The notes beneath the pieces are model-generated. The model did no database searches. It saw only the letters and a list, made by a program, of their open reading frames with translations, and was not told the origin of the DNA. Below are positions 2,939 through 35,786 of a DNA stretch of 37,904 nt, piece after piece. Both the position numbers and the translations under genes were made by a program. The first letter of the stretch is position 1. Each line of letters opens with the position of its first letter. Origin of the DNA: a virus. Where the stretch lies: IMG/VR virus record IMGVR_UViG_3300033150_002214, positions 1 to 37,904 of that record; one strand, 5' to 3'.

Positions 2939-4149
2939 CGCGTCATCTGCAGCGAGGCCTCGCCCGCCGCCTCGGATCCGAAAACAAGCTCCCGGAACAT
3001 CCGGTACTGCTCCGTATGCAGGCCGCGGAAGTAGGCCGACCAGGCCTGCGACCAGGACAGGCCCGGTTCGATCTCTTCCGCCGGGATCCGGCCTACCGAG
3101 TAATACCACTGATCCGCTCCCCACCAGACGGAGCCATCGCCGTTGGCCAGGCTGGGCGCAATCTGATCCTCATAAATCTCACTCGCCGACAGCAGGGACA
3201 GGTACCAGTCGCCGTGCGTGTTGTAGGTGCGGTGCGACACCGACCACAGGACCGGCGCTCCGGGCTTCATGGCTCGCGCGATCTCGGCGACGAATGCCGC
3301 GTAACCGTCATCGCTCATCGCATCCTCGGCCGGCAAGTGAGCGACCGGGTAGAAGTCGTACAGCGACGGCGTGAACCAGTCGATGCGCTCGATCAGAGCC
3401 GTCGCCGCGGTCCAATGATCGATCTTTCGCTGCCGCGTTTCCGGCCGGCAGTTCGCCCACGCTTTCGGGCCCCCATCCTCCCAGCCCAGGTACCACACCG
3501 TCGGCAGGCCCCAATAAGAGATCAGCGCGCCCGGACGCTCCTGTTTCACCACATCGGCGGCCAGGGCCATCTGCTCGATCGTGTGATTCCACTGCGCACT
3601 TCCGGGGGCGGCGGCCAGGCCGCGTGTGTACGGGCCCTCCATATCCAGGCAGATGAAGCCCTCGAAGTCGGCATCCGGGATCTTCGCCGGGATATACCGG
3701 CGCAACCGATCGGGATCGATCGTGCCCGTCAGGTCCGGGTCCATGTGCACGTGGAGGAAGATCGGAATCATGGCGACGTCCGTCGCCTCGATGATCTCCG
3801 TGCTGAGGGGGCGGGACGTCGTGCCGGCGAAGACCGACAGGCGAGGCGCCGCTTCCGGGGGCGGGAGCTGCGCTTCGCAGTCGGCGAGACGCTGGCGCAG
3901 CTCCTTGAGCTCGACCCGCAAGCGGCCGATCTCGGCCGCCTGCGCCTCGATCGCCTCGATCAGGGCGCCATTCAGTTGTTGGAGGCGCGCCTGCTCCGCT
4001 TCGGCCGCGAGCAGCGCCGTCGCGTAGTCGGCCTGGGCCTGGCGGAGAAGAGCGAGGCCTTCATCGAATATCGCGCCGGGCTCGGCGCCGCCCCCGGAAG
4101 CAGGGCCGGAAATGATGGCGAGGAGGAGAAGGAGAGCGAATCGTGTCAT
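2935..4149 (-). CDS. Secreted or envelope glycoside-hydrolase-like protein with coiled coil
   Basis: This 404-aa protein starts with a signal peptide (MTRFALLLLLAIISGPASGG), followed by a long coiled coil (about 25-95, rich in Leu, Ala, Glu and Gln). The rest (about 105-400) looks like a TIM-barrel glycoside hydrolase with similarity in style to hyaluronidase-like proteins: a strand ending FICLDMEGPY with an acid pair at D169/E171, then LISYWGLPTVWYLGW, FTPSLYDFY and SVWWGADQWYY. It starts at ATG 4149, with AAAGGA seven bases upstream; the long upstream extension of the frame has no such signal. A role in cell-wall or glycan degradation during lysis or entry is inferred. It could instead be a host-acquired exported protein. 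Confidence 0.65.
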   Translation of the reverse strand: MTRFALLLLLAIISGPASGGGAEPGAIFDEGLALLRQAQADYATALLAAEAEQARLQQLNGALIEAIEAQAAEIGRLRVELKELRQRLADCEAQLPPPEAAPRLSVFAGTTSRPLSTEIIEATDVAMIPIFLHVHMDPDLTGTIDPDRLRRYIPAKIPDADFEGFICLDMEGPYTRGLAAAPGSAQWNHTIEQMALAADVVKQERPGALISYWGLPTVWYLGWEDGGPKAWANCRPETRQRKIDHWTAATALIERIDWFTPSLYDFYPVAHLPAEDAMSDDGYAAFVAEIARAMKPGAPVLWSVSHRTYNTHGDWYLSLLSASEIYEDQIAPSLANGDGSVWWGADQWYYSVGRIPAEEIEPGLSWSQAWSAYFRGLHTEQYRMFRELVFGSEAAGEASLQMTR

Positions 4150-4192
4150 GGTGTGTCCTTTCAGGTTTGAAACGCGGAGGGCCGCGGAGGAT

Positions 4193-4741
4193 TCATGGCG
4201 CGCTGCCTTTCTTCTTGCCGCCCCCGGAAGCCTTCTTCTCCTGGGCCTGGAATAGGCGGAGCTGCTCGCGATCGCCATCGAGGTACTCCAGCGCCCGATC
4301 GATGATGGCCTGGAGCTTCTCGACGGTGCCGGCCTGCAGGCAATAGCGCTCGCCATCGACGTCGCCGGCGCTGTACGGCTTCTCGGGCTTGTGCGGCGTG
4401 TTGATGACGAGCGGGGCCCGGCTGTCATCGAGCGTCTTGAGTGCCGTGATAACGGCCCCCATGATGCCGTCCTTCCAGGAGAACGAGACGCCGCGCGGCG
4501 TCACGGACGCGATCCAGTGCGCCAGGTGCTTCTCGGGGATGTCGCACATGACGCCCACATCGAGGTCGAGGGCGTGCAGCGCCTCGATGAAGCGCTTCTT
4601 CGGCGGATCGCCCGACGTGAGGCGGTAGGTGTCCGGGTCCTCATCGTCTCCGGGGGCGCGCAGGACCATGTAGGCGATCGTGACTTTCTTTCCATCCCAC
4701 TTCACCTTCGTGATGTGGCGACCGATCTTCTTGGGTTTCAT
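4193..4741 (-). CDS. Hypothetical early protein, 182 aa
   Basis: A 182-residue mixed alpha/beta protein beginning MKPKKIGRHITKVKWDGKKV. It seems to have an N-terminal beta-rich domain that includes DVGVMCDIPEKHLAHWIASV and GVSFSWKDGIMGAVITALKT, and a helical C-terminal segment (VEKLQAIIDRALEYLDG) with a Lys/Gly-rich tail. The ATG overlaps the stop of the upstream ParB-like gene as ATGA, so the two are probably co-translated and may work together. I do not recognise the family. One copy of the dispersed 10-mer (4220) encodes part of the low-complexity tail. Confidence 0.65.
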   Translation of the reverse strand: MKPKKIGRHITKVKWDGKKVTIAYMVLRAPGDDEDPDTYRLTSGDPPKKRFIEALHALDLDVGVMCDIPEKHLAHWIASVTPRGVSFSWKDGIMGAVITALKTLDDSRAPLVINTPHKPEKPYSAGDVDGERYCLQAGTVEKLQAIIDRALEYLDGDREQLRLFQAQEKKASGGGKKKGSAP

Positions 4742-6375
4742 GCCGGCACCGCCTTCGGGCCCCCGGAATGGGCGGCGGCGCGTTTCGTGCGGCCCCCGGA
4801 ACGGGGAGCCGCTCGCTTCTTACGTTGCTTTGTGCGGGGCTTCGTCTTCGTCGATGATGCTTCTTCCGGGGGCTCGAGCTTCGGCTTCGCCGGCATCGCC
4901 TCGGCCAGCTCGGGGAAGATCTCCAGCCACGCCTCGTCCAGGACGTCGATCGACTCGGAGATGGCATCCGCGACCAGGTCCTTGTTCCCCTCGATGAGGT
5001 CCTTGCCCCGCTCACGGACGAAGCGCACGAGCAACTCGCCGCGCTCGGCATCATCGTTCGATCCCAGCCGCCGCAGGAACGGTTGCAGGGCGGCGCGGGC
5101 TTTCGCGCCGGCCGCGCCGCGGCGGGAGACGTCGTGCATCCAGCTCTGCGTGTCGATGATGAGGCTGAACATCGCTACCCGCCAGGCATCGCCGATGATG
5201 AGCTTCTCGACGCGCCGGCAGAGATCGTCCTCCCATTTCCGCAGCGCGTGATCGAGCTTGGCCTGCGCTTCGTTCTTGGCGCTGGCCGCCTTGGCGCCGC
5301 GCTTCTCGGCCGGCGTGGGCTGTTTCGGCGCCTGCTTGCGCTTGGCGGCCGCCGTCACAGCGCCCGGGCGCACGAAGTCCACCTCGCGCTCCGCGATCGC
5401 CTTCCTCGCCAGCGCCGGCGTGGGCGCTTTCTTCTTCCCGTCGGCCGCGGCGTTCTTCACGAGCGTATTGCTCGCCCGCAGCACCGCCGAGCTGGCGGCC
5501 TTCGTCTTGTCCTTGTAACACCCCGCGTTCAGGCACACCGCTTTCCGGGGGGCTTCGGCATCCTCGAAGAGGCCTGGCGCGTTGGCCGAGTTCTCCGGGC
5601 AGGCGCTGCAGGCGAGCTTGCCGGCGAACTCGGCCTCGAGCCGCCAGGGCACGGCGTCGAGCGTGCGCTGATGCTGCTCGACGTAGTGGCGCGTCTCCGC
5701 GATGGAATGCGGCGGCCACATGTCGCCCTTCCGGGGGCGATGGATTCCGTAACCGTGCGACTTCGTTGCGCAGATGCGGCCGGCGACATCCTCCTGGTCA
5801 TCGAAGCTCGCCAGGCGCGCGATGAGCTGGGCGTGCCCGAGGTAGATGAGCTCATCGAGCAGCATTTGGCGCACGCGCGGAGACAGGCGCAGCAGCGCCA
5901 GACGCCCTTCAACCCAGCGCCCGGAACATCCGATCATGGCGGCCACTGCCTGCACATCATCGGCGCCGTCGGCGAGCAGGGCCTGGCAGGCCTCGGCCTC
6001 CTCGAGCGGGTGGAGGTCCTCGCGGTGGAGGTTCTCGATTGCCTGAGCGGCGCGGATCTCACTTTCGGGGGCCGGCGGCAAGACGAACGCCGCGATCGTC
6101 TTTTGCTTGAGGCGCCTGTGCGCCTCGAGCCGCCGATAGCCGAAGCCGAGCGTGAAACGGCCCCCGGACGTTCCGGCCCCGGAATCGGCCTCATAGACGC
6201 GGATGGGTTGCATGAGCCCCTGGTCCGCGATCGATTTCGCCAGCTCGTCAATCTTGGCTTCCTCGGCCGCGCCGGTGCGTAGGCGATGATTGGAGATGAG
6301 CTCATCGATCCTGTCGATGGGGATGTCGCGCGGCTCACCCTGCGCGCCATCCTTCAGCTTCGTGCCCGTCGCCAT
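4738..6375 (-). CDS. ParB/Spo0J-like DNA-binding protein with Cys cluster
   Basis: This 545-aa protein carries a ParB N-terminal domain (about 15-120) with the GFGYRR box at 77-82 and ENLHRED at 114-120, which in the ParB family bind nucleotide, and then a helix-turn-helix (about 139-165). A putative zinc cluster follows (C256, C259, C281, C286). The C-terminal third is helical, ending in a Lys/Arg/Ser-rich tail. Start ATG 6375 is preferred because AGGAG lies seven bases upstream; ATG 6381 is also possible. Phage proteins of this type may act in replication, plasmid-like segregation or gene control. No ParA partner is present, so a full partition system is not supported. The tail contains two 10-mer copies. 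Confidence 0.8.
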   Translation of the reverse strand: MATGTKLKDGAQGEPRDIPIDRIDELISNHRLRTGAAEEAKIDELAKSIADQGLMQPIRVYEADSGAGTSGGRFTLGFGYRRLEAHRRLKQKTIAAFVLPPAPESEIRAAQAIENLHREDLHPLEEAEACQALLADGADDVQAVAAMIGCSGRWVEGRLALLRLSPRVRQMLLDELIYLGHAQLIARLASFDDQEDVAGRICATKSHGYGIHRPRKGDMWPPHSIAETRHYVEQHQRTLDAVPWRLEAEFAGKLACSACPENSANAPGLFEDAEAPRKAVCLNAGCYKDKTKAASSAVLRASNTLVKNAAADGKKKAPTPALARKAIAEREVDFVRPGAVTAAAKRKQAPKQPTPAEKRGAKAASAKNEAQAKLDHALRKWEDDLCRRVEKLIIGDAWRVAMFSLIIDTQSWMHDVSRRGAAGAKARAALQPFLRRLGSNDDAERGELLVRFVRERGKDLIEGNKDLVADAISESIDVLDEAWLEIFPELAEAMPAKPKLEPPEEASSTKTKPRTKQRKKRAAPRSGGRTKRAAAHSGGPKAVPA

Positions 6376-6803: not shown

Positions 6804-7081
6804 GCCGCACCTCCGCCCCCGGAAGTGTTGTCGAGAAGAGGATCGAATCGCACGATCTCGGCCGCGCAGGCGCGGCAGAAGAAGATGCGCCCGTCGGCGC
6901 GGTTGCTGGATTCTGGCCGTCCGTGGATCGCCAGACCGGCATCGAGACCATTCATCCGCCGGCCACATTGCTGGCACCGCGTGCGCATGAACAGCCAGGT
7001 GCGCAGGCGCTTCAACGGCCCCGGTCGATCGATGACGATCGGCGAGCGGAAGCGGATGCAGCCGAGGATGTAGCCGATCAT
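6800..7081 (-). CDS. Small zinc-ribbon protein, 93 aa
   Basis: Two Cys pairs, C36-x2-C39 (RCQQCGRRM) and C69-x2-C72 (FFCRACAAE), make a zinc ribbon. The N-terminus is basic with a hydrophobic start (MIGYILGCIRFRSPIVI), and the C-terminus ends in Gly/Ala encoded near one copy of the 10-mer (6825). Start and stop both overlap the neighbouring genes as ATGA, so it is translated within the early operon. A nucleic-acid-binding role is likely from the ribbon; the exact role is unknown. Confidence 0.6.
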   Translation of the reverse strand: MIGYILGCIRFRSPIVIDRPGPLKRLRTWLFMRTRCQQCGRRMNGLDAGLAIHGRPESSNRADGRIFFCRACAAEIVRFDPLLDNTSGGGGAA

Positions 7082-7413
7082 GCCGCACCTCCGAACAGGG
7101 TTGTCTCTTCAACGCGGGAGGCTACGCCGCAAGCGGGCGGGCGCGCTTCCGGGGGCGTGGCCCTCTGCGGTTCGAAGAATCGGATCGTCGCGGCCGAGAA
7201 GCGGCCATCCTCGTGGGCGATGACGAAGCGCCTTTGGCCCGCGCCCCCGGAACGGCTGCTGTTGCAGAGTGAGCGGCGGCCCCGGCAGAGCTTGAGGGCG
7301 ATCTTCCGCGTGCGCACCGTCGCATGGATCTCGATCAGCCCGAGGCCATAGAAGCGCTTGGCGCGAGACTCGCGCACGACGGTATCGTTATCCGGCAGAC
7401 GCACCTTGGTCAT
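7078..7413 (-). CDS. Hypothetical early protein, 111 aa
   Basis: A 111-residue basic protein, MTKVRLPDNDTVVRESRAKR at the start, then FYGLGLIEIHATVRTRKIAL with alternating hydrophobics suggesting beta strands, a Ser/Gly-rich turn and QRRFVIAHEDGRFSAATIRF. The last 25 residues are Pro/Ala-rich and probably disordered. Its ends overlap both neighbours as ATGA. Two 10-mer copies (7147, 7243) fall in the loop and tail segments. No family recognised. Confidence 0.6.
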   Translation of the reverse strand: MTKVRLPDNDTVVRESRAKRFYGLGLIEIHATVRTRKIALKLCRGRRSLCNSSRSGGAGQRRFVIAHEDGRFSAATIRFFEPQRATPPEARPPACGVASRVEETTLFGGAA

Positions 7414-7679: not shown

Positions 7680-8278
7680 GCTGCCTCCTCAAACGAAAAA
7701 GCCGCTGGTCCCCGGCCCCCGGCCCCCGGCCCCCGGAATCGATGGCCCGGAGTCCGGGGGCTGCGGGGGCTGCGGGGGCGCGGCGGCAACAGAAGAGAAG
7801 AAAATGGAACGCGGCGCGCCGCGATCGGCGCGCCAGGGGGCCCGGGGCGCCGGGGGCCCGGGGGCGCCGGGGGCGCCGGGGGCCAGGGCGGAAACGAAGC
7901 GCACGGGCCGGGCCTTCCGTGGCCCGATGATCCGTGGCGCCGCGGACGCCGACCGTGCGCGGTCGGAAGCGATCCATCGCCGCCGCACTACAATGCAAAG
8001 GAATCGGCGCATCGCGCCGGGCAGCGCGAGGCGCCGGAATCGAGCGCGCGATCGGCTCCGCCCGCCCGGCGACCGTCGCTGGGGAACACGGACGGACTCG
8101 TTTTGCGGCCAATCGACGCGGCCGCCGAAACACGTCAAAAGACGACCGCACGCGCCCGATGAAGAAGGGCGCGTCTCGCCGATTGACGAGGCGCGCCACG
8201 CTCCGACGACAAACGACGGCGCCCGTCCGGCGACCATCGCCGGAAGACACGGGCCGCTACGACAAGGTTCGAATGAGT
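7680..8278. other. About 600 bp without a convincing gene, very GC-rich
   Basis: No frame on either strand combines a ribosome site, a plausible start and a natural composition. The minus frame that ends in GTSGFFV just before the next gene's ribosome site is the best candidate (start near 8009), but its protein is Pro/Ala/Arg-rich and has no motif. The interval contains tandem GCCGGGGGC-like units (7837-7886) and two imperfect 30-bp direct repeats, each with CCGGCGACC, beginning near 8065 and 8222. It may be a degenerated gene or a regulatory region. Confidence 0.4.
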
Positions 8279-8734
8279 TTAGAGCCGCGGCAGCCAGTGC
8301 CACGTTCCGGCGCCTGGCACGACATCGCCATCGTAAGGCACGTGAATCAGGACCGGGTTGAAATCGTGGGCAGATGGATCGAGCATCCCATCGCGGAAGA
8401 CATGGAGATTCACGACCTGCAGACTGGTCGAGACCTGCGTGATGATCGCGGGCCGGACGTTCCGATCGGTCGCGACGTACAGGACGATCTGTCCGATCGT
8501 GGGTCGCTGCTGCTGGGCCTGATCCGGGGCCCGATCCGGGGCCCGATCCGGGGGCTGATCCGGGGGCTGATCCGGGGGCTGATCCGGGGGCTTCGGCGCG
8601 GCCGCCGGCGGCGCTGGGGCAGTCGATCCCGTCTCGGCCGGCGCTGTTGCCGGTTGTTGCTCGGTGCTCCGTGCTGATTGCTGCTCGTTGTTTTCGGGGG
8701 TAGTTCCGGGGGCCACATCGCGCTCCTTTGTCAT
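8279..8734 (-). CDS. Hypothetical protein with disordered PPDQ-repeat arm, 151 aa
   Basis: The first 75 residues are low-complexity (Gln, Thr, Pro, Ala), with repeats of the PPDQ/APDR type encoded by tandem copies of a GATCCGGGGGCT-like unit at 8520-8590. The last 75 residues form a well-composed domain (PTIGQIVLYVATDRNVRPAI ... VNLHVFRDGM ... VPGAGTWHWLPRL) that resembles a small domain found in other phage early proteins; I recall it only in general terms. The ATG at 8734 has no clear ribosome site. The gene lies between the integrase and the gene-poor interval. Function unknown. Confidence 0.6.
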   Translation of the reverse strand: MTKERDVAPGTTPENNEQQSARSTEQQPATAPAETGSTAPAPPAAAPKPPDQPPDQPPDQPPDRAPDRAPDQAQQQRPTIGQIVLYVATDRNVRPAIITQVSTSLQVVNLHVFRDGMLDPSAHDFNPVLIHVPYDGDVVPGAGTWHWLPRL

Positions 8735-10100: not shown

Positions 10101-10273
10101 CAACCGTACCGAGGGCGCCCGGGTTGTCAACCCTATTTTGAAGAGGACACCCCGCTCCGGCAACAGCGAACCCTAACAAACGGGCCTCTTGTTGAACCGG
10201 GCGGGAGCGGCAATTCCGGGGGCTGAGCGTAAGCTGGGAATGCTGACGTTCAGGGAGGGCTGGGCGATCTGGG

Positions 10274-10680: not shown

Positions 10681-11373
10681 ATGCCGACCTTTCGGGTCCG
10701 CGGGACGAAGCGACAGACGGGCGAGCCGATCGTCGGCCGGATGAAGGCCGCCTCACTCGAGCGCGCCGAGGCGCACTGCCGCGAGCAGGGGATCACTATC
10801 ACCGAACTGACCGAGATTGAGCCCCCGGAAGCGCCGCCCCCTGAAGGGCCGCCCCCGGAAGCGCCGCCCCCTGAAGGGCCGCCCGCGGAAGCGCCGCCGC
10901 GGGAAGCGCCGCCGCCGGAAGCGCCGCCCGCATCGGCGCAAGATGAACCGCTGGCGCCGGGCCAATACGAGTTTACCGGTCGAGTTCTACCGGGTGAGGG
11001 CACGCGCGTGTACGTCCGTGCGCCGGTGCCCGTGCGTCCCTACAGCGCCGTGGCGATGATCATCATCATCCTGCGGATCGTCGGCGCCGCGCTCGCGGTG
11101 CTCTTCGGACTCATCCTCATCGGCGGCTTCATCGGCGCCAGCCAGGGCGGCGCGATGGTGCTCATCATCGCCTTTCTCATCGCCATCGCATTCGCCGTCG
11201 CCGCTGTGCTCGTCGTCGCCCTCGCCGAGCTGCTGCAGATGCAGCGCGATGTGGCGCAGAACAGCGCGCGGCTCGATGAACGCCTGGCGAATCTCCAGAC
11301 GCAGCGGCCCCCGGAAGTAGTCGCGTCTTCGTCGTCCACCTTCCGGGGGCGCCGGCTCAGATCGCCCCGCTGA
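10681..11373 (+). CDS. Membrane protein with type II secretion F-like N-terminus
   Basis: This 230-aa protein is one of few plus-strand genes. Residues 1-46 (FRVRGTKRQTGEPIVGRMKA, then ERAEAHCREQGITITEL) resemble the N-terminal cytoplasmic domain of T2SS F/PilC proteins. Residues 47-85 are a PPEAPPPEG-type linker encoded by 10-mer copies and variants. Two strong membrane spans follow (about 123-152 and 157-182), then a short coiled coil (185-207). ATG 10681 has GGAGG eight bases upstream. It converges on and overlaps the fibre gene by 17 bp. It could be a lysogenic-conversion gene or a phage membrane factor; the function is unknown. Confidence 0.7.
   Translation: MPTFRVRGTKRQTGEPIVGRMKAASLERAEAHCREQGITITELTEIEPPEAPPPEGPPPEAPPPEGPPAEAPPREAPPPEAPPASAQDEPLAPGQYEFTGRVLPGEGTRVYVRAPVPVRPYSAVAMIIIILRIVGAALAVLFGLILIGGFIGASQGGAMVLIIAFLIAIAFAVAAVLVVALAELLQMQRDVAQNSARLDERLANLQTQRPPEVVASSSSTFRGRRLRSPR
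11307..11350. repeat. Inverted pair of 10-mers near convergent gene ends
   Basis: GCCCCCGGAAG (11307-11317) and CTTCCGGGGGC (11340-11350) form a perfect 11-bp inverted repeat with a 22-base loop, a few tens of bases before the stop codons of both convergent genes. It could act as a bidirectional transcription barrier, although no U tract follows on either strand. Confidence 0.55.
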
Positions 11374-12670
11374 CCTTCACCGCGAGATCGAACGTCCCCG
11401 CCGTCAGGCCCCCGGTCGTGGAGCCCAGGCCCGTCACGCTCATCTTCACGGTGATGTTCGTGCTCCCGCTGTACGATTCGCAGTTGTCCGCGACAGGGCC
11501 ATAGATCGCGAAGCTGTCCACGGCCTGGTTCCAGTTCCAGGTGGCTCCTGCGGTGTACTTGTTGCTGCCGGCCACGCCGATCTCGACCACGCACGTCGCC
11601 ATGCCGCCCTGCACGGGCTGCTCGGTCACGCGGCACGTGATCGCCTCGATGACGCCGCCCGCGGGCAGGACGAATGCGATCTCGGTCTCCTGGTTCGAGC
11701 CGCCCGTGAAGTCGCTCTCATCGACCTCGATGATGTACCAGTGCCCATAGGGCCCGGCCCCCGGAGTGCCGCCGAGGGCGATGGGCGTGCCGCTCTCGCC
11801 GTTGATCGCCGTGACCATCTCCGCGCCCGTCTGGTCGGCGGTCGCACCGTTCTCGACGTTGAGATCTGTCCGCACCTCCTCGTAGCTGCGGCCCTCGAGG
11901 CCGCCGGCGGTGAACTTCGCGTAATCGCCCGCCCCGGCGCCGCTGTCGTGATCGACCTGGACGATGTTGTTGTCCGCGATGCCGATCGAGACGGCCGCGA
12001 CGTTGCCGCCTGTGAGGCGTCCGAGCAGCGTCTGCTCGTTGAAACTGATGGCCGTGGGCGTGTTGTCGGCGACCGCGGCGAGGACGGTCTGGGCATCGTA
12101 GTTCGTGATCGTGCCCGTCCAGGTCTGCGTGCCCGTGATGTTGATGGGGACGCCGGCCGCCCCGATGTTCACCGCACTCGTGTTCGCATCGCCGCATATC
12201 AGTGTGCCGGGCGTGCCGTAGACGGAACAGCCCCCGCGAAACGTGAGGTCGCCCCCATCATGTCCGTAGTTTATTCCAGCCCCGCCGGTGATCGTCAGCG
12301 AGCCGCCATGTCCGGCCAGGTTGTTGTGGCCATAGATGGCCCACGCATCGCTGTCCGTCGTCAGATTGCCATTGTCCAAGCACGCGATGTGGCTGTCCTG
12401 CAGGCCCTTCGTACCGTCCCACCGCACGACGCACCCGTCCGTCCCCGTGCCGTCGAGGTCGGTCAGGCGCTCGGAGAGCTCATCGAGGGCAGGCGCCACC
12501 TCGCCGGGGCCCCCGGAAGCCGTCCAGTCCATGGGATCCTCCGGTGTGTACCAGACATAGGCCGCATCGATCGGGCCGTCGCCCTGGCCGATCATGGAGA
12601 AAATGCCGAAGCCGCCGGCGAGCGCGCCCAGGCCGAGTCCGAAACCTGCTGCGAGTCGTCCGAAATTCAT
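11357..12670 (-). CDS. Tail fibre / distal tail protein
   Basis: This 437-aa protein has a hydrophobic Gly/Ala-rich N-terminus (about 4-27) and then repetitive beta-rich sequence (GNLTTDSDAWAIYGHNNLAG, GGSLTITGGAGINYGHDGGD, SAVNIGAAGVPINITGTQTW) characteristic of trimeric fibre shafts. A C-terminal domain (about 310-437, GHWYIIEVDESDFTGG ... TNITVKMSVTGLG) looks like a beta-sandwich tip. It is the last gene of the tail cluster, where receptor-binding proteins usually lie. The hydrophobic N-terminus could be a signal or a hydrophobic attachment segment. The role is inferred from composition and position. Confidence 0.65.
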   Translation of the reverse strand: MNFGRLAAGFGLGLGALAGGFGIFSMIGQGDGPIDAAYVWYTPEDPMDWTASGGPGEVAPALDELSERLTDLDGTGTDGCVVRWDGTKGLQDSHIACLDNGNLTTDSDAWAIYGHNNLAGHGGSLTITGGAGINYGHDGGDLTFRGGCSVYGTPGTLICGDANTSAVNIGAAGVPINITGTQTWTGTITNYDAQTVLAAVADNTPTAISFNEQTLLGRLTGGNVAAVSIGIADNNIVQVDHDSGAGAGDYAKFTAGGLEGRSYEEVRTDLNVENGATADQTGAEMVTAINGESGTPIALGGTPGAGPYGHWYIIEVDESDFTGGSNQETEIAFVLPAGGVIEAITCRVTEQPVQGGMATCVVEIGVAGSNKYTAGATWNWNQAVDSFAIYGPVADNCESYSGSTNITVKMSVTGLGSTTGGLTAGTFDLAVKVSGAI

Positions 12671-13083: not shown

Positions 13084-14499
13084 CTACGCGATGAGGTCGT
13101 CGCTGATCGACGGCGTGTCGGACACGGGCAGCAGCAGCGGCTCGCCCGTCGGCAACCGCATGCCGTGGATGTCCCAGACACGATCGAGCCAGGTGATGAT
13201 CTGGCTCATCGTGCGGTTATTCGTGATCGTCGCCGTGATGACATCCCCCTTCACCCAGGGCGTGGCGCCGCCGATGATCGCCAGCTTCGGATCCTGCGCC
13301 CAGAGATCGAAGGCCTCGGCGATCGCGATCCCCCCCACATAAATGTTGTCGCCATCGCCGAGGGCGGTCGAGGTCTCGAGGATGATCTCGGCGGCGGCTG
13401 GAATCAGATACGGCGTCCAGACGAGGGCGGCGTACCACGTGTAAACATCGGTCAGGGCCGTGCAATCGACGGTGACGGCACACGGATCAAGCGTGTTGAG
13501 GATGGTGCCGCCGCCATCCTGGAAGCTCAGTCGCAGCACGCCGGCCCCCGGAACGTCCGTGCCCTTGCGCACCACCGGACCGATCACGTACGGCCGGGCC
13601 GGGCGCAGCAGCGTCGCGCTGGCCCCATCACAGGGTTGCGGGAGGGAGGGTTTCGTGCCCACAGCATCACCGACGAGCTTCAGGTGCTTCGTGCCGACAT
13701 ACGGCTCCGTGTCGTCTTCGAAGATGTGGACTCCGGCGGTCCCGGCCTTCGGCGGGCCCCAGTAGCTCGGCACGTTGGTGACGAAAAGCTGCATGGCGCC
13801 GTTGCTGACGATGTTCTTGCCCGGCCCGATGCCGCGCTGGCGATCGAGGGCGATCGAGGTCATGCGGCCGGTGAGGCCGCTGCCGCCTTTTGCGAACCAC
13901 TCGTGGCACATGTTCGGCTTCGTCGCCTTGCCGGAGACCTCGAAGACTTCCTCGCCGGCGCGGACGGCGCGCCGGGGCCCTTGGGCATCGGCGGTGCAGA
14001 GCATCCTGATCTTCTCGGGGCGCGCGTTGGCCAGGTAGGCGCCGGTGCGATCCTTCACGCCGACAGCGCCCACGCCGTCGCCCGTGTTCGTGTGTCCGGG
14101 GGCGCCGTAGGCGACCGTGGCGGCGACCGTGCAGTCGTTGAGCGTCTCGCTGTCGGCGATCATGAACTGGCGAAGCGTGCGGACCATCGCGATGAGTTGC
14201 TCGCGATCGCGGATCGCCTCGAGCAGCTCCTCAGCGCCGACCTGGCGGATAAAGAAATGCCCGGTGGCGTTGGCGATCGCCTGGCTGTTGAGGAGGACGG
14301 CCTGGTCGATGTTGTCGAACGCGCGCAACACCTCGTTGAACTCGTAGAGTTCGGCCTCCTCGGTGTCGCCCACGATCAGGCCGCGCTCGGTCTTGAGGTC
14401 GGTGCGCAGCGTATCGAGCGTCGCCAGGCGGGCGAAGACGCGGCAGACGGCATTGAAGGCGCCCTGCGTGTCGCCGCTCTCTTGATACGGGAATGCCAT
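13084..14499 (-). CDS. Distal tail structural protein, 471 aa
   Basis: The N-terminal 120 residues are helical (FNAVCRVFARLATLDTLRTD, ELYEFNEVLRAFDNIDQAVL), and the remainder is beta-rich with many Gly, Asp and Thr, ending in a domain with ITNNRTMSQIITWLDRVWDI. It is encoded in the distal tail cluster, after the Cys-rich protein and ahead of the fibre. This suggests a virion component, perhaps tail-tip or capsid-binding. I do not recognise a named family. A 10-mer copy (13546) codes for part of a loop (GTDVPGAG). Confidence 0.6.
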   Translation of the reverse strand: MAFPYQESGDTQGAFNAVCRVFARLATLDTLRTDLKTERGLIVGDTEEAELYEFNEVLRAFDNIDQAVLLNSQAIANATGHFFIRQVGAEELLEAIRDREQLIAMVRTLRQFMIADSETLNDCTVAATVAYGAPGHTNTGDGVGAVGVKDRTGAYLANARPEKIRMLCTADAQGPRRAVRAGEEVFEVSGKATKPNMCHEWFAKGGSGLTGRMTSIALDRQRGIGPGKNIVSNGAMQLFVTNVPSYWGPPKAGTAGVHIFEDDTEPYVGTKHLKLVGDAVGTKPSLPQPCDGASATLLRPARPYVIGPVVRKGTDVPGAGVLRLSFQDGGGTILNTLDPCAVTVDCTALTDVYTWYAALVWTPYLIPAAAEIILETSTALGDGDNIYVGGIAIAEAFDLWAQDPKLAIIGGATPWVKGDVITATITNNRTMSQIITWLDRVWDIHGMRLPTGEPLLLPVSDTPSISDDLIA

Positions 14500-22219: not shown

Positions 22220-22250
22220 CCACCCTCGGAATCCCCACTTCCGGGGGCCG

Positions 22251-23457: not shown

Positions 23458-23882
23458 CACGTAGTCCCCGATCCCACGAGCTTGGTGTGGATGCGCAGCG
23501 CGCTGCGACCCGGGTCCATGTAGCGCCAGGCCGGCTCGTCTCCGCCCGGAGGCATGACCTCGTAGGTCAGTGTGATCTCGCCCTCGCCCCCGGAACATGT
23601 GACATCGATCTGGTCGCCCTCGGCCGGCTCGGTGATGGCCTCGCCCAGGACGAGGTCGGCCGCCGCGATGAGCTCATCGTGGACCTCCATCTCGGTGACC
23701 AGACCCAGGTCATCAGCTCGCTGGTATCTGCTCATTCCGGGGGTGGCGGTGATTTGGACCTCATCGCTTCCGGGGGCGCCGGGGGCGCCGCGGCGGTACG
23801 TGACCGTGCGGCCGCCGGCGGTCTGGAGCCGCGTGAGCAGGCGAGCGGTCGCGTTGTCGAGGCGGGTCGTGGTCATGGCCAT
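23457..23882 (-). CDS. Head-tail connector protein
   Basis: A 141-aa protein: TRLDNATARLLTRLQTAGGR, TVTYRRGAPGAPGSDEVQIT, VHDELIAAADLVLGEAITEP, GEITLTYEVMPPG and PAWRYMDPGRSALRIHTKLV. The order and beta-rich C-terminus resemble head-tail joining (lambda FII-like) proteins. The APGAPGS loop is encoded by a 10-mer copy (23768) plus a GCCGGGGGC unit, an apparent insertion between two beta strands. The start may be M1 or M3; neither has a strong ribosome site. Confidence 0.65.
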   Translation of the reverse strand: MAMTTTRLDNATARLLTRLQTAGGRTVTYRRGAPGAPGSDEVQITATPGMSRYQRADDLGLVTEMEVHDELIAAADLVLGEAITEPAEGDQIDVTCSGGEGEITLTYEVMPPGGDEPAWRYMDPGRSALRIHTKLVGSGTT

Positions 23883-24961: not shown

Positions 24962-25134
24962 GGTGTGTGTCCTTGTCGTTGCCAGGGGTTGTCCCGGGGG
25001 TCATTCCGGGGGCAAAGGCGGAGGCGCCGGTCAGCGCAGCTTCTTCAGGGAAGTGGTGGTTGTGTCTCTGCGTGCCGATGCGCCTCCGCCTGATCGGTGT
25101 CGATTCACTGAGCCCCATTTCCGGGGGGCCGGGG

Positions 25135-27447
25135 TTAGACGCCGTCGTTCTTGACGCCCGCCCGCTGCTCGTGGAGGGCGATGCCGAAGTCCCAGAAGGA
25201 CCGCCACTGCATGCCGAGGACGTTGAAGTTCGCCTGGGCGGATCCGAGCGTCGGGCGGCGCTGCCCGCGCAGATAGCCGACCTGGACGATCGCATGGCCC
25301 GTGCCGGGCTCCGGCAGCAGGTACCAGGCCGTGTCGCTGGCGCCGGTGAGGCCGGAGGCCGTGCCGAGGTACGGCGAGACCACAGGCTTGAACGAGCCCT
25401 TGTGCGGGTTGCCCCGCGGCTTCGGCTTGTTGGCTGTGGTCGTCTCGTTGAGCTCCGTCGACTCGTAGATCGACTTCGCCGTGGCCTCGAGGGCGGGCGG
25501 GGCCAGCACCTTCCGGGGGCTGACCATGATGAACTTGCCGCCCGCGTTCGTCTGCTCGCGGTACGCCTTCACGGCGTTGTTGAGGCCGGCGATGGCCAGG
25601 GCCGAACCGGCGCCTGTGAGCAGGTTGCCGTTGTCGGCGTGGAAGAAGTCGCCGCCGTTGGCGAGGATCAGCGTGAACAGGCCCTGCTCGCGGGCATGCA
25701 TGGCCAGCTCGACGAAGATGTACGGGATCTGGAGGAAGGCCCCGAGGTCGTCGTTGATGATCATCTGCCGGTTGAGCGTGATCATCCCGCCGTGCGTCTT
25801 GAGCTGGTTGGCGTACTCGCTCTCGAGGAGCGCGATGTGCTTGAGTTCGCCGTCGGGCCCGACCTCGCTGAACGTGCCCTTGCCGTCAAGGCGGTAGCGG
25901 GTGAACTGCTTGAAGTTGTTCGTATCGGTCTCGTAGGCGATCTCGCTCACGACGGATTCGAGCATCTCAAAGCGCTCGAGCATCGCCTTGTTGGCGACGT
26001 TGCTGAGGATGCCCGAGAGGGAGATCGTCGAGAAGCCGCCGGCCGCCTGGATCATGTTTCCGTTGAGCAGCGGATCCGTTCGCAGGGCCGCTTCGATCGT
26101 GTCATCGTCGAGGCGGCCGAGCATGCTGTGTCCGCCATTGGCGGCGAGCGAAGCGTGGATGAGCTGGCCGAGCGTGAATCCTCGCAGGTCGCGCCCCATC
26201 GCGGCGTTCACGACCTGCTCGCCGTACTGCTCGCCGACGAACTCCTCGGCGCAGCCGACGCTCAGGCACATCGAGGCCTCGATGACGCGCGCGCTGTCCG
26301 GGCCCCCGGAAGTGGCGCCCACGCTGGCCATCGGCGCCTGGGGCCGGTTGGCCCGCAGGGCGTGCAGCTCCGCCTGGTCGATCGTCCAGCCCTGGGCGAT
26401 CGCGTGGGCCTGGAGATCGACCTCAGCATCGTCGACGGTAATGTGGGGCCGGTTGTGCCGCGCACAGACGGCCTCGATGCCGCTGATGCGCTGGTGTTCG
26501 GCGCGCATTGTGGTGATCATCTCCGACACCGCCGAGCCGTTGTTCCCAGCGCCCCCGGAATTGGGATTCGGCGCGCCGGCGGATCCTTCGATGCCGGTCG
26601 CGCCATTTCCGGCCGCGCCAGTTCCGGGGGCGGGGGCCCCGGGGCTCCCGGAGCCCCCCGGGCCGGGGGCCGCGGGGGTCGCTGCGGGTGCGGGGGAACC
26701 CTCGCCGGTTCCGGCACCTGCGGCACTTCCAGGGGCGGCGGTGGCCTGGATCTCGGCGTCGTAGGCGGCCTGGAAAAACTTTCGCTGCTCATCGCTGAGC
26801 GTGTTGTGATCGAAGCCCTTGGCCTGGAGCCATTGTTCGAACGTCATGATCAGTACTCCATGTGTTCCTTGGCCCGCTGCAATCTTCGCTAAGGTGTCCT
26901 CGGCCGCCCCGATCGCCGTGAAACTCGCCTCGACGATGACCGTCTCGCGCGCGACGATGAGCGGCCCCCGGAAACTGCGTCCGTTGACCACCACATCCTT
27001 GCCGGCCTCGACGAACTCCCGCCGCACGATCTCGGCGCCGATGGACCCCTCCCATTCGAAGCCGTTCTTCGCCGAGGTCATGATGCTGTTGACGTGCTCC
27101 CCGCTGCCGGAGACGACGCCGGCGACGCGGATCCCGCTGCCGTCGATCTCGACCGTGTCCATGTGGCCGACGATCTTCGTGCGATCATGCTCGTAGAAGG
27201 CCTTCACCCGGCGCCGCGCCTTCGCGCCCTTGAGCTCGATGACCACCGGGAAGTAGAACGCGGCCACGCTCAGGGCGCTGCCGTCGTAGGCCTTCATCTC
27301 AAAGCGCGGCAGGCCCCCGCCCCCGGAATCGTCGCCATCCGGCGCAGCGGCGGTGATCGTCACCGGCGCGGTGAACGTGAAGGTTGCCGGCCCCTGATTC
27401 GAGGCGAGCAGCGTCCGTGGCATCGACATGGCGTCGTGCGGGATCAT
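25135..27447 (-). CDS. Prohead protease / major capsid protein fusion
   Basis: The 770-aa product joins a protease (about 20-205, with FYFPVVIELKGAKARRRVKA, TKIVGHMDTVEIDGSGIRVA GVVSGSGEHV and WEGSIGAEIVRREFVEAGKD) to a capsid part (about 315-770, LSGILSNVANKAMLERFEML, NLLTGAGSALAIAGLN, WRSFWDFGIALHEQRAGVKN), through a Pro/Gly/Ala linker (about 235-310) holding several 10-mers. The pattern is that of Mu-like protease/gpT fusions. The protease would cleave itself free and release the shell protein. The linker would lie at or near the cleavage region. The start overlaps the portal stop as ATGA. Confidence 0.85.
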   Translation of the reverse strand: MIPHDAMSMPRTLLASNQGPATFTFTAPVTITAAAPDGDDSGGGGLPRFEMKAYDGSALSVAAFYFPVVIELKGAKARRRVKAFYEHDRTKIVGHMDTVEIDGSGIRVAGVVSGSGEHVNSIMTSAKNGFEWEGSIGAEIVRREFVEAGKDVVVNGRSFRGPLIVARETVIVEASFTAIGAAEDTLAKIAAGQGTHGVLIMTFEQWLQAKGFDHNTLSDEQRKFFQAAYDAEIQATAAPGSAAGAGTGEGSPAPAATPAAPGPGGSGSPGAPAPGTGAAGNGATGIEGSAGAPNPNSGGAGNNGSAVSEMITTMRAEHQRISGIEAVCARHNRPHITVDDAEVDLQAHAIAQGWTIDQAELHALRANRPQAPMASVGATSGGPDSARVIEASMCLSVGCAEEFVGEQYGEQVVNAAMGRDLRGFTLGQLIHASLAANGGHSMLGRLDDDTIEAALRTDPLLNGNMIQAAGGFSTISLSGILSNVANKAMLERFEMLESVVSEIAYETDTNNFKQFTRYRLDGKGTFSEVGPDGELKHIALLESEYANQLKTHGGMITLNRQMIINDDLGAFLQIPYIFVELAMHAREQGLFTLILANGGDFFHADNGNLLTGAGSALAIAGLNNAVKAYREQTNAGGKFIMVSPRKVLAPPALEATAKSIYESTELNETTTANKPKPRGNPHKGSFKPVVSPYLGTASGLTGASDTAWYLLPEPGTGHAIVQVGYLRGQRRPTLGSAQANFNVLGMQWRSFWDFGIALHEQRAGVKNDGV

Positions 27448-29045
27448 GCCGCGGCCTCCAGTTGCTCCAGCGCCGCCTCGAGATCCTCGAGGCGATCGGC
27501 GAGGGACTCCACGTCGGCTGACGCGTTGGCTGAGCCGGCCGGGGAGTCAGTGAATGAGATCCCGTACTCTTTCTCCAAGTCCTGTTTGACTTTCAATTCC
27601 TTCGCGCGCTGACGCAGGTTCCGCTCCCAGTCGACGCCCTCGCGGGCGCCTTCGCGGGCAAGGTTTGTCGTGCAGCTCGCAAGCCGGTTCTTCTGGCCAA
27701 CGGATTCCTTGGCCGGATCGACGTGCTCATCGCCCGGCCAGAACCACTCGTGGTCGATCGACGCATCGGCATCGGGGATTGGCAGGTAGCCGGGAATCAG
27801 CGAGGCCTCGGCGAACCACTGCTCAAGCAGCCACTCGAGCACGTCGAGCTCCAGCTCATCGCGATCGACGCGGAGGGACTTGTAATAGACCTGGTGATCG
27901 AGCCGGCCCGAGGCGTAGTTGTAGCCGGAGCTGTCGCCGGCGGCGACGTTGTACGGCATGTTCAGGCAGCGGGCGATCTCGTTGATGATCTGCCGCTTGA
28001 AGTCGCCATACGTCGTCGTCGGCTGTTCGGCCTTGAAGCCGGAGGCATCATGGTTATCCGGCAGCACCATGAGGGCGCGGCGCACGATCTCGACGAGGTC
28101 GCCGGGCACCAGGCCGACCGCATCATCCTCCTCGTCTGGAGGCAGGTTGTTCGTGATGACGCCGGCGATGTCGGCCGCCGTCTCGGCGGCGGCGATGGTC
28201 GCCAGCGTGTAGCGGCGGAGCTGCGCATAGAGCGGCAGGGCCGGTGTGATTTCCGGCACGCCGCGCGTCTGCGCCGGGCGCTCGCGCCGGAACAGGTGCA
28301 CCACGTGCTCAGCGTGAACGTCGTCCTTGTCCATGGGTGAGTTCGTGAGCAACGTCACCGTCTCGCCCGGATGCTGCTTGAGCACGTGATAGATGAGGGG
28401 GTTACCGAAGTCATCGAAGATGATGCCATCGGTGACCTGCTTCGGATCGAACCCCATCGTCGGCGTGGCCACCTGGTCCGCCTCCACGAGGCGCAGATCG
28501 AGCTTGACCGGCCCCGGAAGACGCGGGTTGGTGATGCGGATGCCGAAAACCTCGCCGTCGCGGGCGCGGCTCATGCGCATCGTCCGCAGCTTCTGGGCCA
28601 GGCGGATGCGCCGCGCCCAGAGCGCGAACTTACGTTCGATCTCGTTGGCGGCCGCGCGGTTCGAGTGGAGAAGCTGCAGCGTCGGCCCGACGCCGACCAC
28701 ATCGTTGGCGAGCGTGAGCAGCATGCCCTTGCAGTAGGTGTTGTTTGCATACTCGTAGCGGGCGCGGAAGCGAAGCACAGCTCGCACGGCCGGATTGTGC
28801 GCGGCGTTGGCGCTGAGGGCATCGGCGGCGGCCCAGTGCGCCGCGTTCTCATCGGTCGTCTGCGCGGCGTCGTAGCTGGCCCGCAGCCGCCGGTGGCCAT
28901 CGGTCATCGCGCCGATCGTGCAGGGATGGTGCGCGCGCTTTCGGGCGGAGGCCTCGACGGCCGCCCCCGGAAGTGTGGCCTCGGCGACGGCGGCCGTGGC
29001 CGCGCCGGTCGCGTTTCCGGGGGGATTTCCGGGGGCCGGGGTCAT
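27444..29045 (-). CDS. Portal protein (lambda family)
   Basis: This 533-aa protein forms the dodecameric head vertex through which DNA enters. After a low-complexity N-terminus (about 1-40, encoded with two 10-mers), it reads RRLRASYDAAQTTDENAAHW, NPAVRAVLRFRARYEYANNT, YCKGMLLTLANDVVGVGP and MRMSRARDGEVFGIRITNPR, a clear lambda-family portal pattern. Later blocks include LPDNHDASGFKAEQPTTTYG and INEIARCLNMPYNVAAGDSS, also typical. The C-terminal helix is Glu/Leu-rich. It overlaps both the gpW-like and the capsid genes as ATGA, in the usual W-portal-protease order. Confidence 0.9.
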   Translation of the reverse strand: MTPAPGNPPGNATGAATAAVAEATLPGAAVEASARKRAHHPCTIGAMTDGHRRLRASYDAAQTTDENAAHWAAADALSANAAHNPAVRAVLRFRARYEYANNTYCKGMLLTLANDVVGVGPTLQLLHSNRAAANEIERKFALWARRIRLAQKLRTMRMSRARDGEVFGIRITNPRLPGPVKLDLRLVEADQVATPTMGFDPKQVTDGIIFDDFGNPLIYHVLKQHPGETVTLLTNSPMDKDDVHAEHVVHLFRRERPAQTRGVPEITPALPLYAQLRRYTLATIAAAETAADIAGVITNNLPPDEEDDAVGLVPGDLVEIVRRALMVLPDNHDASGFKAEQPTTTYGDFKRQIINEIARCLNMPYNVAAGDSSGYNYASGRLDHQVYYKSLRVDRDELELDVLEWLLEQWFAEASLIPGYLPIPDADASIDHEWFWPGDEHVDPAKESVGQKNRLASCTTNLAREGAREGVDWERNLRQRAKELKVKQDLEKEYGISFTDSPAGSANASADVESLADRLEDLEAALEQLEAAA

Positions 29046-31455: not shown

Positions 31456-31480
31456 ATGCATAGATACAGGAGACAGACAA

Positions 31481-32081: not shown

Positions 32082-32155
32082 ACTCCACAACACCCTCCCC
32101 ACCCCCTCGGCCAGCGCCGGGCGGGGTGAAGTCAACCTGAACAGGAGACAGACCG

Positions 32156-32677: not shown

Positions 32678-32747
32678 TCGGCGTGGGGCATTACAATGAT
32701 GGAGGTGGGGCGAGCGCAGGCAGACGAGCGGCTGATAGGAGGCTGCG

Positions 32748-33017: not shown

Positions 33018-33123
33018 CCCGAACCTCTGCCGCCAAAACCGAAACTTACCCGAAGCTTTGACGAGAGCCCGTTGAATCGGCCGCCCGATCGCCGTGCCTT
33101 CGCCGTCCGTGGCCTTCCGTGTT

Positions 33124-33327
33124 TCAACCTCCCGGAGCCGGGGGATCTGCCCCCAACCGCTCCACTGTGAAGAACTCGTAGCCGCAGTTGCGGCAGCGCC
33201 GCTTGCGGACGATGCCCTTTCCCCGCGGCCGCGTGTAGAGTACGGGCGCGTGCCGGCAGCCGCATCTCCGGCACTCGACCGGGTATTCCTCCGGCGGCTG
33301 ATCTGATTCGTGATCCGGCTCTCCCAT
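33124..33327 (-). CDS. Zinc-ribbon protein, 67 aa
   Basis: After an acidic start (MGEPDHESDQPPEEYPVECR) it has CRRCGCRHAPVLYTRPRGKG and RKRRCRNCGYEFFTVERLG, a treble of Cys residues and a closing CxxC that form a zinc ribbon. It resembles the zinc-binding half of NrdR-like or Ogr/Delta-like proteins in style. ATG 33327 is chosen; TTG 33333 is possible and better placed after AAGG. It lies 30 bp downstream of the terminase gene, so it may be co-transcribed. Likely a small transcriptional regulator or nucleic-acid binder. Confidence 0.7.
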   Translation of the reverse strand: MGEPDHESDQPPEEYPVECRRCGCRHAPVLYTRPRGKGIVRKRRCRNCGYEFFTVERLGADPPAPGG

Positions 33328-33362
33328 GTTCAAACCGGGCCTTTCTCGTTCGTTCTTGGTCC

Positions 33363-35786
33363 CTAATTCGTCCCCATCGCCGCCCTTCCGGGGGCGCCGG
33401 GGGCCAGGCGGATGCGCTTACGCTTCTTGCCCGACCGCGCCTGGTGCCCGAGGGTGGTGATGCCCTCGATCGACGCGGCGACGGCCGCCCCGACCACGCA
33501 GTCCCACAGGTGGTTGTCGCGCCCGGGGCTGAGCTTCCATTCATCCACCCGCCGGCCGCGGCCCTCCGTGGCTACGGGGTATTCGCTCGTGAGGTGCTCG
33601 ATGAGCATGCGGTGCTCCGCCGGCGAGCCCTTGCAGATGGAGAGACTGCCCTGGTCGCCGTGGGCAGCGCGCAGGCGATCGGCGGCGAAGCTCTTCCACC
33701 AGTTCACATCGAATATGAGATAGCGCGAGGCGCGCCGGGCGCTGCGCACCGGGATGCGCCATTGCTGTCCCACGCGATCCCCGGGTTTCTTCTCCCACTC
33801 GTTGAGCGGCTTCTGACTGGCGCCGATGCCCCGCCCGTGGCTGGGCAGCAGCAGCGCCCGGTGATCGCTCTCGCGGCAGAACTGGTAGACGACATCCGTC
33901 GACTTGCCCCAGTTCGCATCGATGATGATCCGCGTGATGGCCAATTCCGTGGCCCCCTCGTTGCGCCATGGCCGGCTGCAGAGCTCATCGGTGAGCTGCT
34001 GCAGTCCATTGTAGAGCTTCCCCTCGAAGCCTGTCCCGGGGGCCGCGCGGCCCAGCGTGCGCCGCGCATCGCGGTTCGTGAAATACTGCCGCCCCTGATC
34101 GGGCCACGCGCCGTAGTCGACGATGGTGCCGACGAAGTTGTCGCCCCAGGCGCAGACGACCCACCAGAGAACCTTGTCTTGCACATCGATGAACGCGACG
34201 AGCTGGTGGCAGGCCTGCGGGATCACGCCGCGCGCGACGCCGGCGATCTTCCCCGCCAACGCTTCGTCATCCAATCGGTCGGCCGCGTCCGGGTTCAGGT
34301 CCAGCGGCTCATTCTGGTACTCGGCGAAGAAGGTCGCCTCATCACGCAGGCGCAGGTTCCAGGCGTGCTGGATGGCCGACAGCTCCGTCGGATGGAATCG
34401 CTCCGGCCAGGCGACCTCCGCGCCCTGATCCATCGCCTTGCGGTGCTTGCGGTAGAACGCGGTAGCGGCCTTGCCGCCATCCTCGTTGAGCAGGCCGTCG
34501 GCGCGGATCTGAGCGTACTGCTCCCAGAGCGTCTCGTTCGTGGGCCAGCGGTACACCATTTGGCACCGCTCGCTGTTCCAGTCCGGGTGCTTTGTGCGAT
34601 CCAGGATCCGGTCGGCCATGTCATTCTGGACGATGACGGTCACCGTGAGCAGCCCGGCGATGCGCTTGCCCGGGCCGGCCAGGCCGAGGATCGCGCCGGC
34701 CAGGATCCGCTCGCGCTGTTCGTTCTGCGTGATCGACTTGGCCGTCTCGTCCGTCTGCGGATCGTCCACGAGCACGAGGTCCGGCCGCACGGTTTCCCCG
34801 TCGGGCCGGACGAACTTCATGCCGCGGATCCGGCCGGTGAGGCCGGCCACGCGGATGATGCCGCCTGAGGCGACGCTCCCCGGGATCGAGGGGAGGATGA
34901 CCTGATCGACGCGCCAACTGATGCGCGTGCGCTTCCCCTCGTAGAGCTGGCCCTTTGCGCGCTGGGTGATGCCATCGAGGCGCTGGATCGGGTAACAGAG
35001 CTCGGGGAAGTCGGCGGCGAGACGCTCGTTGAGCTCGAGCTCGGTCTTGATGCTGTCGAGCATGTCCACCGCCAGGCCCTTATCGGCCCCGATCAGCGCC
35101 ACGAAACTGCAGTGGCCGTAGCCCTCGGCCCACAGGCACGCGACCTCGCAGAGCGATGTCTTGCCGCTGCCGCGCGCCATGGCCATGGCGAAGAGATCAC
35201 CTCCCAGCACCGCTCGCTCGATCTTGGCGATGACCCGCAGGTGATCCTTTGACCACGGCAGGTAAAAGCGCTGTGGGAAGTACTCATCGCAGAAGGCTCG
35301 AAAGTTCCGCTCGCAACGGGCCCGACGCTCGGGATTCTCGATCGCCGGCAGCGGGGCGATGTCGCGCCCGGACCGCGACTGATCGGCCTGCCGCGCCCGC
35401 GTGCGCTCGCGATGCGCCTCATAGCCGCCTCCCGAAGCCCCTGATCCTGAGCCAGGTGCGCCGGCGATGTGCCGGTCGGTGGCGAGCCAACCGGCATAGC
35501 GCAGCAGGTCGATCGACTTGCCATCACTCCCGGGCGCCGTGATGCGCGCCCCGGCGGCCAAGCGGTCGCTGTAGAGGCGCCGCTCGGTGAGGACCGTGCC
35601 CAGTGGTGTGGAATTGAGGAGCTGCAACAGCTCCGCCGGCTTGAGTTTGCGTGGGTCGCGCGGCATCGCGGGTCCGAGAAGCTGGGCCAGTTTCGACGCG
35701 AGAGCGTCGAGATCGATCTTTCTTGGCGCACCGCGCGATCGGGCTGATGCGCCACCGCGGGTGCGCCGATTGCGAATTTCAGCCAT
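33363..35786 (-). CDS. terL: Terminase large subunit
   Basis: The 807-aa packaging motor has Walker A at 205-211 (RGSGKTS), Walker B at 337-342 (LVLVDD), and the three acidic residues of an RNase H-like nuclease at D534 (FIDVQ), D623 (IIDAN) and D762 (HLWDC). The type is close to lambda gpA-like terminases. Residues about 50-105 (LLNSTPLGTVLTERRLYSDR ... SDGKSIDLLRYAGWLATDRH) form an extra DNA-binding module related to the neighbouring 94-aa protein, with a Gly/Ser linker after it (106-120). It packages DNA into the prohead and cuts it. A 10-mer copy (33386) encodes the C-terminus. Confidence 0.93.
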   Translation of the reverse strand: MAEIRNRRTRGGASARSRGAPRKIDLDALASKLAQLLGPAMPRDPRKLKPAELLQLLNSTPLGTVLTERRLYSDRLAAGARITAPGSDGKSIDLLRYAGWLATDRHIAGAPGSGSGASGGGYEAHRERTRARQADQSRSGRDIAPLPAIENPERRARCERNFRAFCDEYFPQRFYLPWSKDHLRVIAKIERAVLGGDLFAMAMARGSGKTSLCEVACLWAEGYGHCSFVALIGADKGLAVDMLDSIKTELELNERLAADFPELCYPIQRLDGITQRAKGQLYEGKRTRISWRVDQVILPSIPGSVASGGIIRVAGLTGRIRGMKFVRPDGETVRPDLVLVDDPQTDETAKSITQNEQRERILAGAILGLAGPGKRIAGLLTVTVIVQNDMADRILDRTKHPDWNSERCQMVYRWPTNETLWEQYAQIRADGLLNEDGGKAATAFYRKHRKAMDQGAEVAWPERFHPTELSAIQHAWNLRLRDEATFFAEYQNEPLDLNPDAADRLDDEALAGKIAGVARGVIPQACHQLVAFIDVQDKVLWWVVCAWGDNFVGTIVDYGAWPDQGRQYFTNRDARRTLGRAAPGTGFEGKLYNGLQQLTDELCSRPWRNEGATELAITRIIIDANWGKSTDVVYQFCRESDHRALLLPSHGRGIGASQKPLNEWEKKPGDRVGQQWRIPVRSARRASRYLIFDVNWWKSFAADRLRAAHGDQGSLSICKGSPAEHRMLIEHLTSEYPVATEGRGRRVDEWKLSPGRDNHLWDCVVGAAVAASIEGITTLGHQARSGKKRKRIRLAPGAPGRAAMGTN

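Follow-up and report, generated by a model that had tools for sequence, protein, structure and literature searches.

Why a single 10-bp word, TTCCGGGGGC, should recur throughout a phage genome is the question raised by IMG/VR virus record IMGVR_UViG_3300033150_002214, which we analyzed over its whole length of 37,904 bases (hereafter the window; GC 66.7%). Exact counting gave 41 copies between positions 3600 and 33395, 20 on the plus and 21 on the minus strand, in agreement with the original prediction, which had counted them by eye and expected about 0.3 copies. Markov models of orders 0 to 4 gave both-strand expectations of 0.32, 0.23, 0.17, 0.31, and 0.69, respectively; models of order 5 and above recover the count only since their input k-mers already hold most of the word. 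The over-representation is ~130-fold, and TTCCGGGGGC is the top over-represented 10-mer of the window under Markov orders 2 and 3. There are 56 copies of TCCGGGGGC and 76 of CCGGGGGC, and beyond the word itself the sole enriched flank position is a C at -1. An artefact arising from base composition, codon choice, or slippage in G-runs would suit a GC-rich genome in which CCGGGGGC is frequent too. However, the length of the G-run after TTCC has a sharp maximum at five Gs, in the phage as well as in hosts, which disfavors slippage and indicates that the word is not a G-run effect. Together with the Markov nulls, the reversed word used as a control (0 copies in the window), and the codon shuffle described below, this refutes the artefact and leaves it virtually no probability.

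The word acts at the DNA level and not at the level of protein, as had been proposed. Predicted genes contain 28 of the 41 copies, and the other 13 are intergenic (gene calls are approximate, coming from a simple gene finder, and gene 11008-11373 (+) is doubtful), with a density between genes ~1.8 times that inside genes. Copies were seen in both orientations, in all three codon phases and in all six frames, and genic copies read as SGG (10), APG (7), PPE (4), PGA (3), PRK (2), or FRG (2); the readings SGG, PPE, and PRK first given for the ParB-like gene are correct. Synonymous codon shuffling left a mean of 0.6 genic copies (maximum 4 in 300 shuffles) vs. 26 observed in the tested set, and 10 of the 19 SGG tripeptides are spelled T-TCC-GGG-GGC, where 0.04 would be expected. 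It is the use of all six frames and both strands, the intergenic copies, and the excess over shuffled codons that place the action in the DNA. SGG, APG, and PGA tripeptides are over-represented in the window's proteins, but an amino-acid repeat as the driver is ruled out by six-frame use and intergenic copies, and the tripeptide excess is a by-product. Neither k-mer nor codon composition predicts the word, and homologues, instead of carrying the same codons as conserved protein sequence, are often without it. As the original prediction had supposed, no described motif with this sequence was found in the open-access literature searched, where the 20 matches listed, out of 33, were, by title, unrelated primers, promoters, and terminators. 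A DNA search of a phage database returned no match.

Among bacteria, the word characterizes one family of Phycisphaerae (Planctomycetota) and a few other genomes of the class, nearly all other planctomycetes sampled being at background. When 85,000 species genomes were scanned for two close direct copies, the matches listed, which are not a complete census, were mostly Phycisphaeraceae, Phycisphaerales, and other Planctomycetota. The genomes of Phycisphaeraceae SJ709 (G001) and of SJ399 (G011) hold 727 words in 3.6 Mb and 771 in 4.8 Mb, with 18-20 copies of the reversed control. Among the 51 genomes of G011's family, the word outnumbers the reversed control in most, by margins ranging from slight to 40-fold; of 397 genomes of the class, the majority are at background count, and in a phylum sample of 246 genomes the 11-mer CTTCCGGGGGC is clear only in G001, G002, G005, G009, G068, and G075, and weaker in G081. 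The host form of the word is approximately CACTTCCGGGGG followed by C, T, or G. Tandem arrays with a period of 10-30 occur in G001 and G003 and not in the G011 sample, and the sample contigs of G007 hold few words. Most of these host genomes are incomplete metagenome assemblies, and host turnover was looked at in a few loci. As a separate observation, contigs of G001 (L157-L176) carry several other intergenic hairpin and tandem repeat families (GTGCCACACAGCA..., AATGACGAATG, CTAACTCCTAA, and AATCGGCAAT).

In the phage family, the density of the word is 4-5 times that of the sampled host chromosomes. A protein-similarity search that made no use of the word gave relatives (L018, L036, L037, L197, and L199) with 0.5-1.1 copies/kb; relative L198 (46% identity) has none, and in 1.12 Mb from 79 more distant terminase relatives there are 6 copies vs. 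3.6 expected. The word-rich phages L007, L012, L014, and L030 are distant members of the window's head-tail family. Since all word-rich phages examined in detail share this one family, effects of phage lineage and of host are not separated here. Within a single genome, prophages and chromosome were compared in G157, a complete genome of the host family (a single contig of 7,376,598 bases) with 230 words and 3 reversed controls. It has 12 strong portal matches, at 52-53% identity in the alignments reported, and the ten regions that were examined show synteny with the head and tail genes of the window. Segments chosen by the portal gene hold 46 words in 400 kb, vs. 32 in an unbiased sample of 1.2 Mb (P = 2e-10 for equal density), and the ratio of prophage to chromosomal density is ~4.3, the latter being 0.03/kb. 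The window itself has 1.08/kb vs. 0.16-0.25/kb in the densest hosts, a ratio like that of G157. The suggestion that the phage had adopted a host-wide motif stands insofar as the word is iterated across a host clade, but, given the higher density in the phage, it has not merely adopted the host word. The load of ~12 related prophages of the window's family in G157 (L304-L323; GC roughly 50-58%) is unusual and makes this genome a good system for studying prophage turnover. Separately, the contig L001/L032 (IMGVR_UViG_3300033489_000019), an otherwise unlike sequence, carries 18 words, all in tandem arrays at both ends (sampled ends ~33% GC).

Despite this abundance, the words are clearly unprotected in place. 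In alignments of the window to L037, L199, L197, and L018 (74-87% identical), an exactly matching word was present in 14 of 67 directed comparisons, where 13.9 were predicted from flanking 10-mers, and gaps fell at the word 23 times vs. 12 expected. Among the ten G157 prophages, 46 of 349 words were shared vs. 69 predicted from flanks, with 200 gaps vs. 68. These comparisons are mutually non-independent and cover phages and prophages. Word sites are therefore conserved no better than neighboring DNA, and the idea of a conserved binding or recombination site finds no support in the phages. Under equilibrium selection at ~100-fold enrichment, words should disappear at a far lower rate than their flanks, as in the DNA uptake sequences (DUS) of Neisseria; the alternative way to low sharing under selection is recent parallel accumulation.

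This behavior bears on whether TTCCGGGGGC could be a recognition signal, read by a host machine (DNA uptake, end processing, or recombination) and accumulated by selection or biased recombination. Phage DNA with the word would then survive or recombine better, word-making point mutations and short insertions would be fixed, and low sharing would be due to recent accumulation or to a form of the word that has lately changed. Such a signal is the chief alternative to the interpretation given below, and we consider it possible but doubtful. The word is a non-palindromic 10-12-mer present on both strands and in all frames, with forms that differ among host lineages, and both its synonymous in-place gains and its scarce one-mismatch forms (see below) suit a signal. 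It resembles DUS and the uptake signal sequences of Neisseriaceae and Pasteurellaceae, non-palindromic 9-12-mers with very strong over-representation, lineage-specific forms, and genic as well as intergenic copies, some of which arise as blocks and not by point mutation; some recent Neisseria DUS, too, are too unlike their homologues for point mutation (PMC2397512). However, DUS are kept in place, with a mean identity of 97% vs. ~85% for aligned sequence, and are absent from recently acquired genes (PMC2397512), whereas TTCCGGGGGC turns over like its flanks and, instead of being depleted in recently acquired DNA, is 4-5-fold denser in phages and prophages. A ComEC-family protein was found in 44 and a PDDEXK nuclease (AddB-like) in 48 of the 51 family genomes; both families occur in low-copy genomes too, and in an informal look at these incomplete genomes their presence showed no obvious match to word copy number. 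Matches to PDDEXK_1, a model not specific to AddAB, occur in AddB- and AddA-sized frames of most family genomes, including G157.

A Chi-like site of an AddAB/RecBCD-type enzyme, over-represented by phages that lack a recombinase of their own, is improbable. Like Chi, the word is G-rich and non-palindromic; it is enriched in phages, AddB-like nucleases are present in hosts, no recombinase or RecBCD inhibitor was recognized among the window genes scanned, and Chi is over-represented in phages without recombinases (PMC3784561). Unlike Chi, it is without strand polarity: in G157, 59 words were in the G-rich-strand orientation and 48 in the opposite one (P 0.33), and a minus-strand run of copies at 1.58-2.41 Mb, considered as a sign of polarity, was not sustained across the replichore. 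Its ten bases are longer than Chi, its over-representation is far above a level of ~2-fold, it occurs in tandem arrays, and its chromosomal density in G157, 0.03/kb, is lower than that of Chi in E. coli, about one per 5 kb (PMC3784561). Fast turnover with an abundance that is greatest in phages matches neither uptake sequences nor Chi.

Two ParB-domain genes in the window, encoding a ParB-like protein (4738-6375) and a DNA methyltransferase (36141-37409), and the density of the word in phages bring to mind a binding site for a phage protein such as one of these. Sites of this kind, parS and Noc, are palindromic, unlike TTCCGGGGGC, which differs from its own reverse complement. Moreover, G001 is rich in words but has no portal match, and the words are not conserved in place, so we give this explanation as little weight as a Chi-like site. 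HIP1, the highly iterated palindrome of cyanobacteria (GCGATCGC), is likewise a short word iterated genome-wide, mainly genic and patchy over a bacterial lineage, but it differs from TTCCGGGGGC in being a palindrome. HIP1 has been linked to methyltransferases that recognize internal sequences (PMC4390886).

Comparison of homologous sites showed how copies arise. Between phages, most genic gains are in-place substitutions and insertions are a minority: L037 keeps TSGG (26302) and SPRK (25511) with different codons, and in the reverse case, at ~34869, L199 has the word and the window keeps ASGG without it. Changed codons were synonymous in 20 of 43 cases within words vs. 129 of 279 in flanks. 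The proposal of a precise mini-insert thus describes a clean 10-bp insertion at 25004-25013 but not most genic gains. Insertion polymorphism of the word between homologous sites was nevertheless seen. The asparaginyl-tRNA synthetase gene of G003 has three words in ~20 extra residues near the N-terminus, which the G012 orthologue lacks (flank 82% identical to G003), and G157 prophages show 6-bp and other gaps at words. The G157 hairpin repeat CTGGATTCCCGCCTGCGCGGGAATGAC occurs in 107 copies at 27 nt, and 19 longer versions (33-34 nt) contain the word or a near-form in their loop; word-bearing loops occur on both arm variants and include a 7-bp insertion. The phage copies share only the word, without arms, direct repeats, or a longer common unit, and excess one-mismatch variants amount to 0.2-0.6 of exact copies. 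Like repetitive extragenic palindromic (REP) sequences, bacterial interspersed mosaic elements (BIME), and the G-rich heptameric repeats of Xanthomonas and Nostoc, TTCCGGGGGC is a repeat found spreading in host genomes, and some words are located within REP-like hairpin loops; unlike these, phage words have no arms or shared context and are mainly genic. On the G157 chromosome (L324-L407), a REP-like hairpin repeat, CTGGA[CT]TCCCGCCTGCGCGGGA[AG]TGAC, is abundant, and there are also (TTAGGGA)n heptamer arrays, a repeat separate from TTCCGGGGGC.

Our tentative interpretation, plausible if short of probable, is that TTCCGGGGGC is a short repeat that has been repeatedly written into these planctomycete and phage genomes. 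It builds on the enrichment, the action at the DNA level, the fast turnover, and the insertions described above, to which it adds a writing step that we infer. Templated insertion or overwriting would put the word into DNA, either by a template switch to a copy already present or through some enzyme, and protein function would remove damaging events. Survivors of this protein-level filter would be intergenic, or would fall in Ser/Gly/Pro/Ala linkers or at codons where the word is tolerated, and phages would gain more copies, perhaps through more DNA replication and recombination. It is rather unlikely, in our view, that the word amounts to a self-spreading element of a new kind, 10-12 bp long, which a templated process places in the chromosomes of planctomycetes and, at the highest density, in their phages, with no arms, coding capacity, or site conservation.

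Several points weigh against a writing process. Neither a writer gene nor a template RNA was found. Most coding gains between phages are in place, several of them fully synonymous (25511, 26302; L199 ~34869), and codon-position changes resemble ordinary substitutions, which is easier to explain under selection for the word. One-mismatch forms are scarcer than would be expected from simple neutral decay. The word-bearing hairpin repeats could stem from a few insertions that were then spread by the repeat itself, and a recent burst of selected gains would likewise give low sharing.

Within the window, the copies (Table 1) are spread unevenly: 40 of 41 lie within 3600-29036 (binomial P 2e-6, for a range picked post hoc). 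The remaining 12.4 kb (1-3599 and 29037-37904) hold a single copy, although relative L199 does have copies there.

Table 1. Exact copies of TTCCGGGGGC in the window, with gene context, peptide reading, and state in related phages.
Position	Strand	Context	Reading	Remarks
3600..3609	+	antisense in gene 2935-4149 (-)	APG	
3853..3862	+	gene 2935-4149	PPE	
4090..4099	-	gene 2935-4149	SGG	
4220..4229	-	gene 4193-4741	SGG	
4759..4768	-	ParB-like gene 4738-6375	SGG	
4792..4801	-	ParB-like gene 4738-6375	SGG	
4864..4873	+	ParB-like gene 4738-6375	PPE	
5729..5738	+	ParB-like gene 4738-6375	PRK	
6815..6824	-	called intergenic		
7147..7156	+	called intergenic		
7243..7252	-	called intergenic		
7729..7738	-	intergenic		followed by CCGGGGGC-like runs
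8704..8713	+	gene 8279-8734	APG	
10214..10223	+	intergenic		
10821..10830	-			within 30-bp tandem unit
10851..10860	-			within 30-bp tandem unit
11307..11316	-	doubtful gene 11008-11373 (+)		
11341..11350	+	doubtful gene 11008-11373 (+)		
12509..12518	-	gene 11357-12670	SGG	
13544..13553	-	gene 13084-14499	PGA	L018 and L197 have TTCCGACGGC
15853..15862	+	gene 15238-16572	PPE	L018 and L197 without word
16033..16042	-	gene 15238-16572	SGG	L018 word at 3-bp offset
16146..16155	+	gene 15238-16572	APG	common to L018
20066..20075	-	intergenic		
20656..20665	+	intergenic		
21006..21015	-	gene 20948-21484		inside TTCCGGGCGCGC repeat
22239..22248	+	intergenic		common to L197
23586..23595	-	gene 23457-23882	SGG	
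23768..23777	+	gene 23457-23882	APG	L037 has ACCCCCGGAA
23940..23949	+	intergenic		common to L037
24037..24046	+	intergenic		
25004..25013	+	intergenic		exact clean 10-bp insertion vs. L037
25511..25520	+	head gene 25135-27447		L037 keeps SPRK via other codons
26302..26311	-	head gene 25135-27447		L037 keeps TSGG via other codons
26551..26560	-	head gene 25135-27447	SGG	
26622..26631	+	head gene 25135-27447	APG	
26964..26973	-	head gene 25135-27447	FRG	
27319..27328	-	head gene 25135-27447	SGG	
28963..28972	-	portal gene 27444-29045	PGA	common to L037, not in L199
29027..29036	+	portal gene start	APG	region reshuffled in L199 and L037
33386..33395	+	near end of terminase gene 33363-35666	APG	not in L199

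The remaining gene content is that of a tailed phage, with a terminase, portal, head protease fusion, tape measure, and tyrosine integrase. The product of 36141-37409 (-) is a DNA N6/N4-methyltransferase with its ParB domain at the N-terminus. Gene 8279-8734 contains, at 8500-8600, a tandem (CAGCCCCCGGAT)n-like codon repeat that resembles the word but ends in GGAT and not GGAA.

Highly iterated words are few in bacteria, and most of them have led to a mechanism, be it DNA uptake, recombination, or methylation. TTCCGGGGGC marks a poorly studied lineage of planctomycetes and is densest in its phages, where it is abundant despite a turnover about that of neighboring DNA. This points either to a process by which short DNA words are written or to a fast-changing recognition system. 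In addition, the word offers a practical way of assigning uncultured phages to Phycisphaerae hosts.

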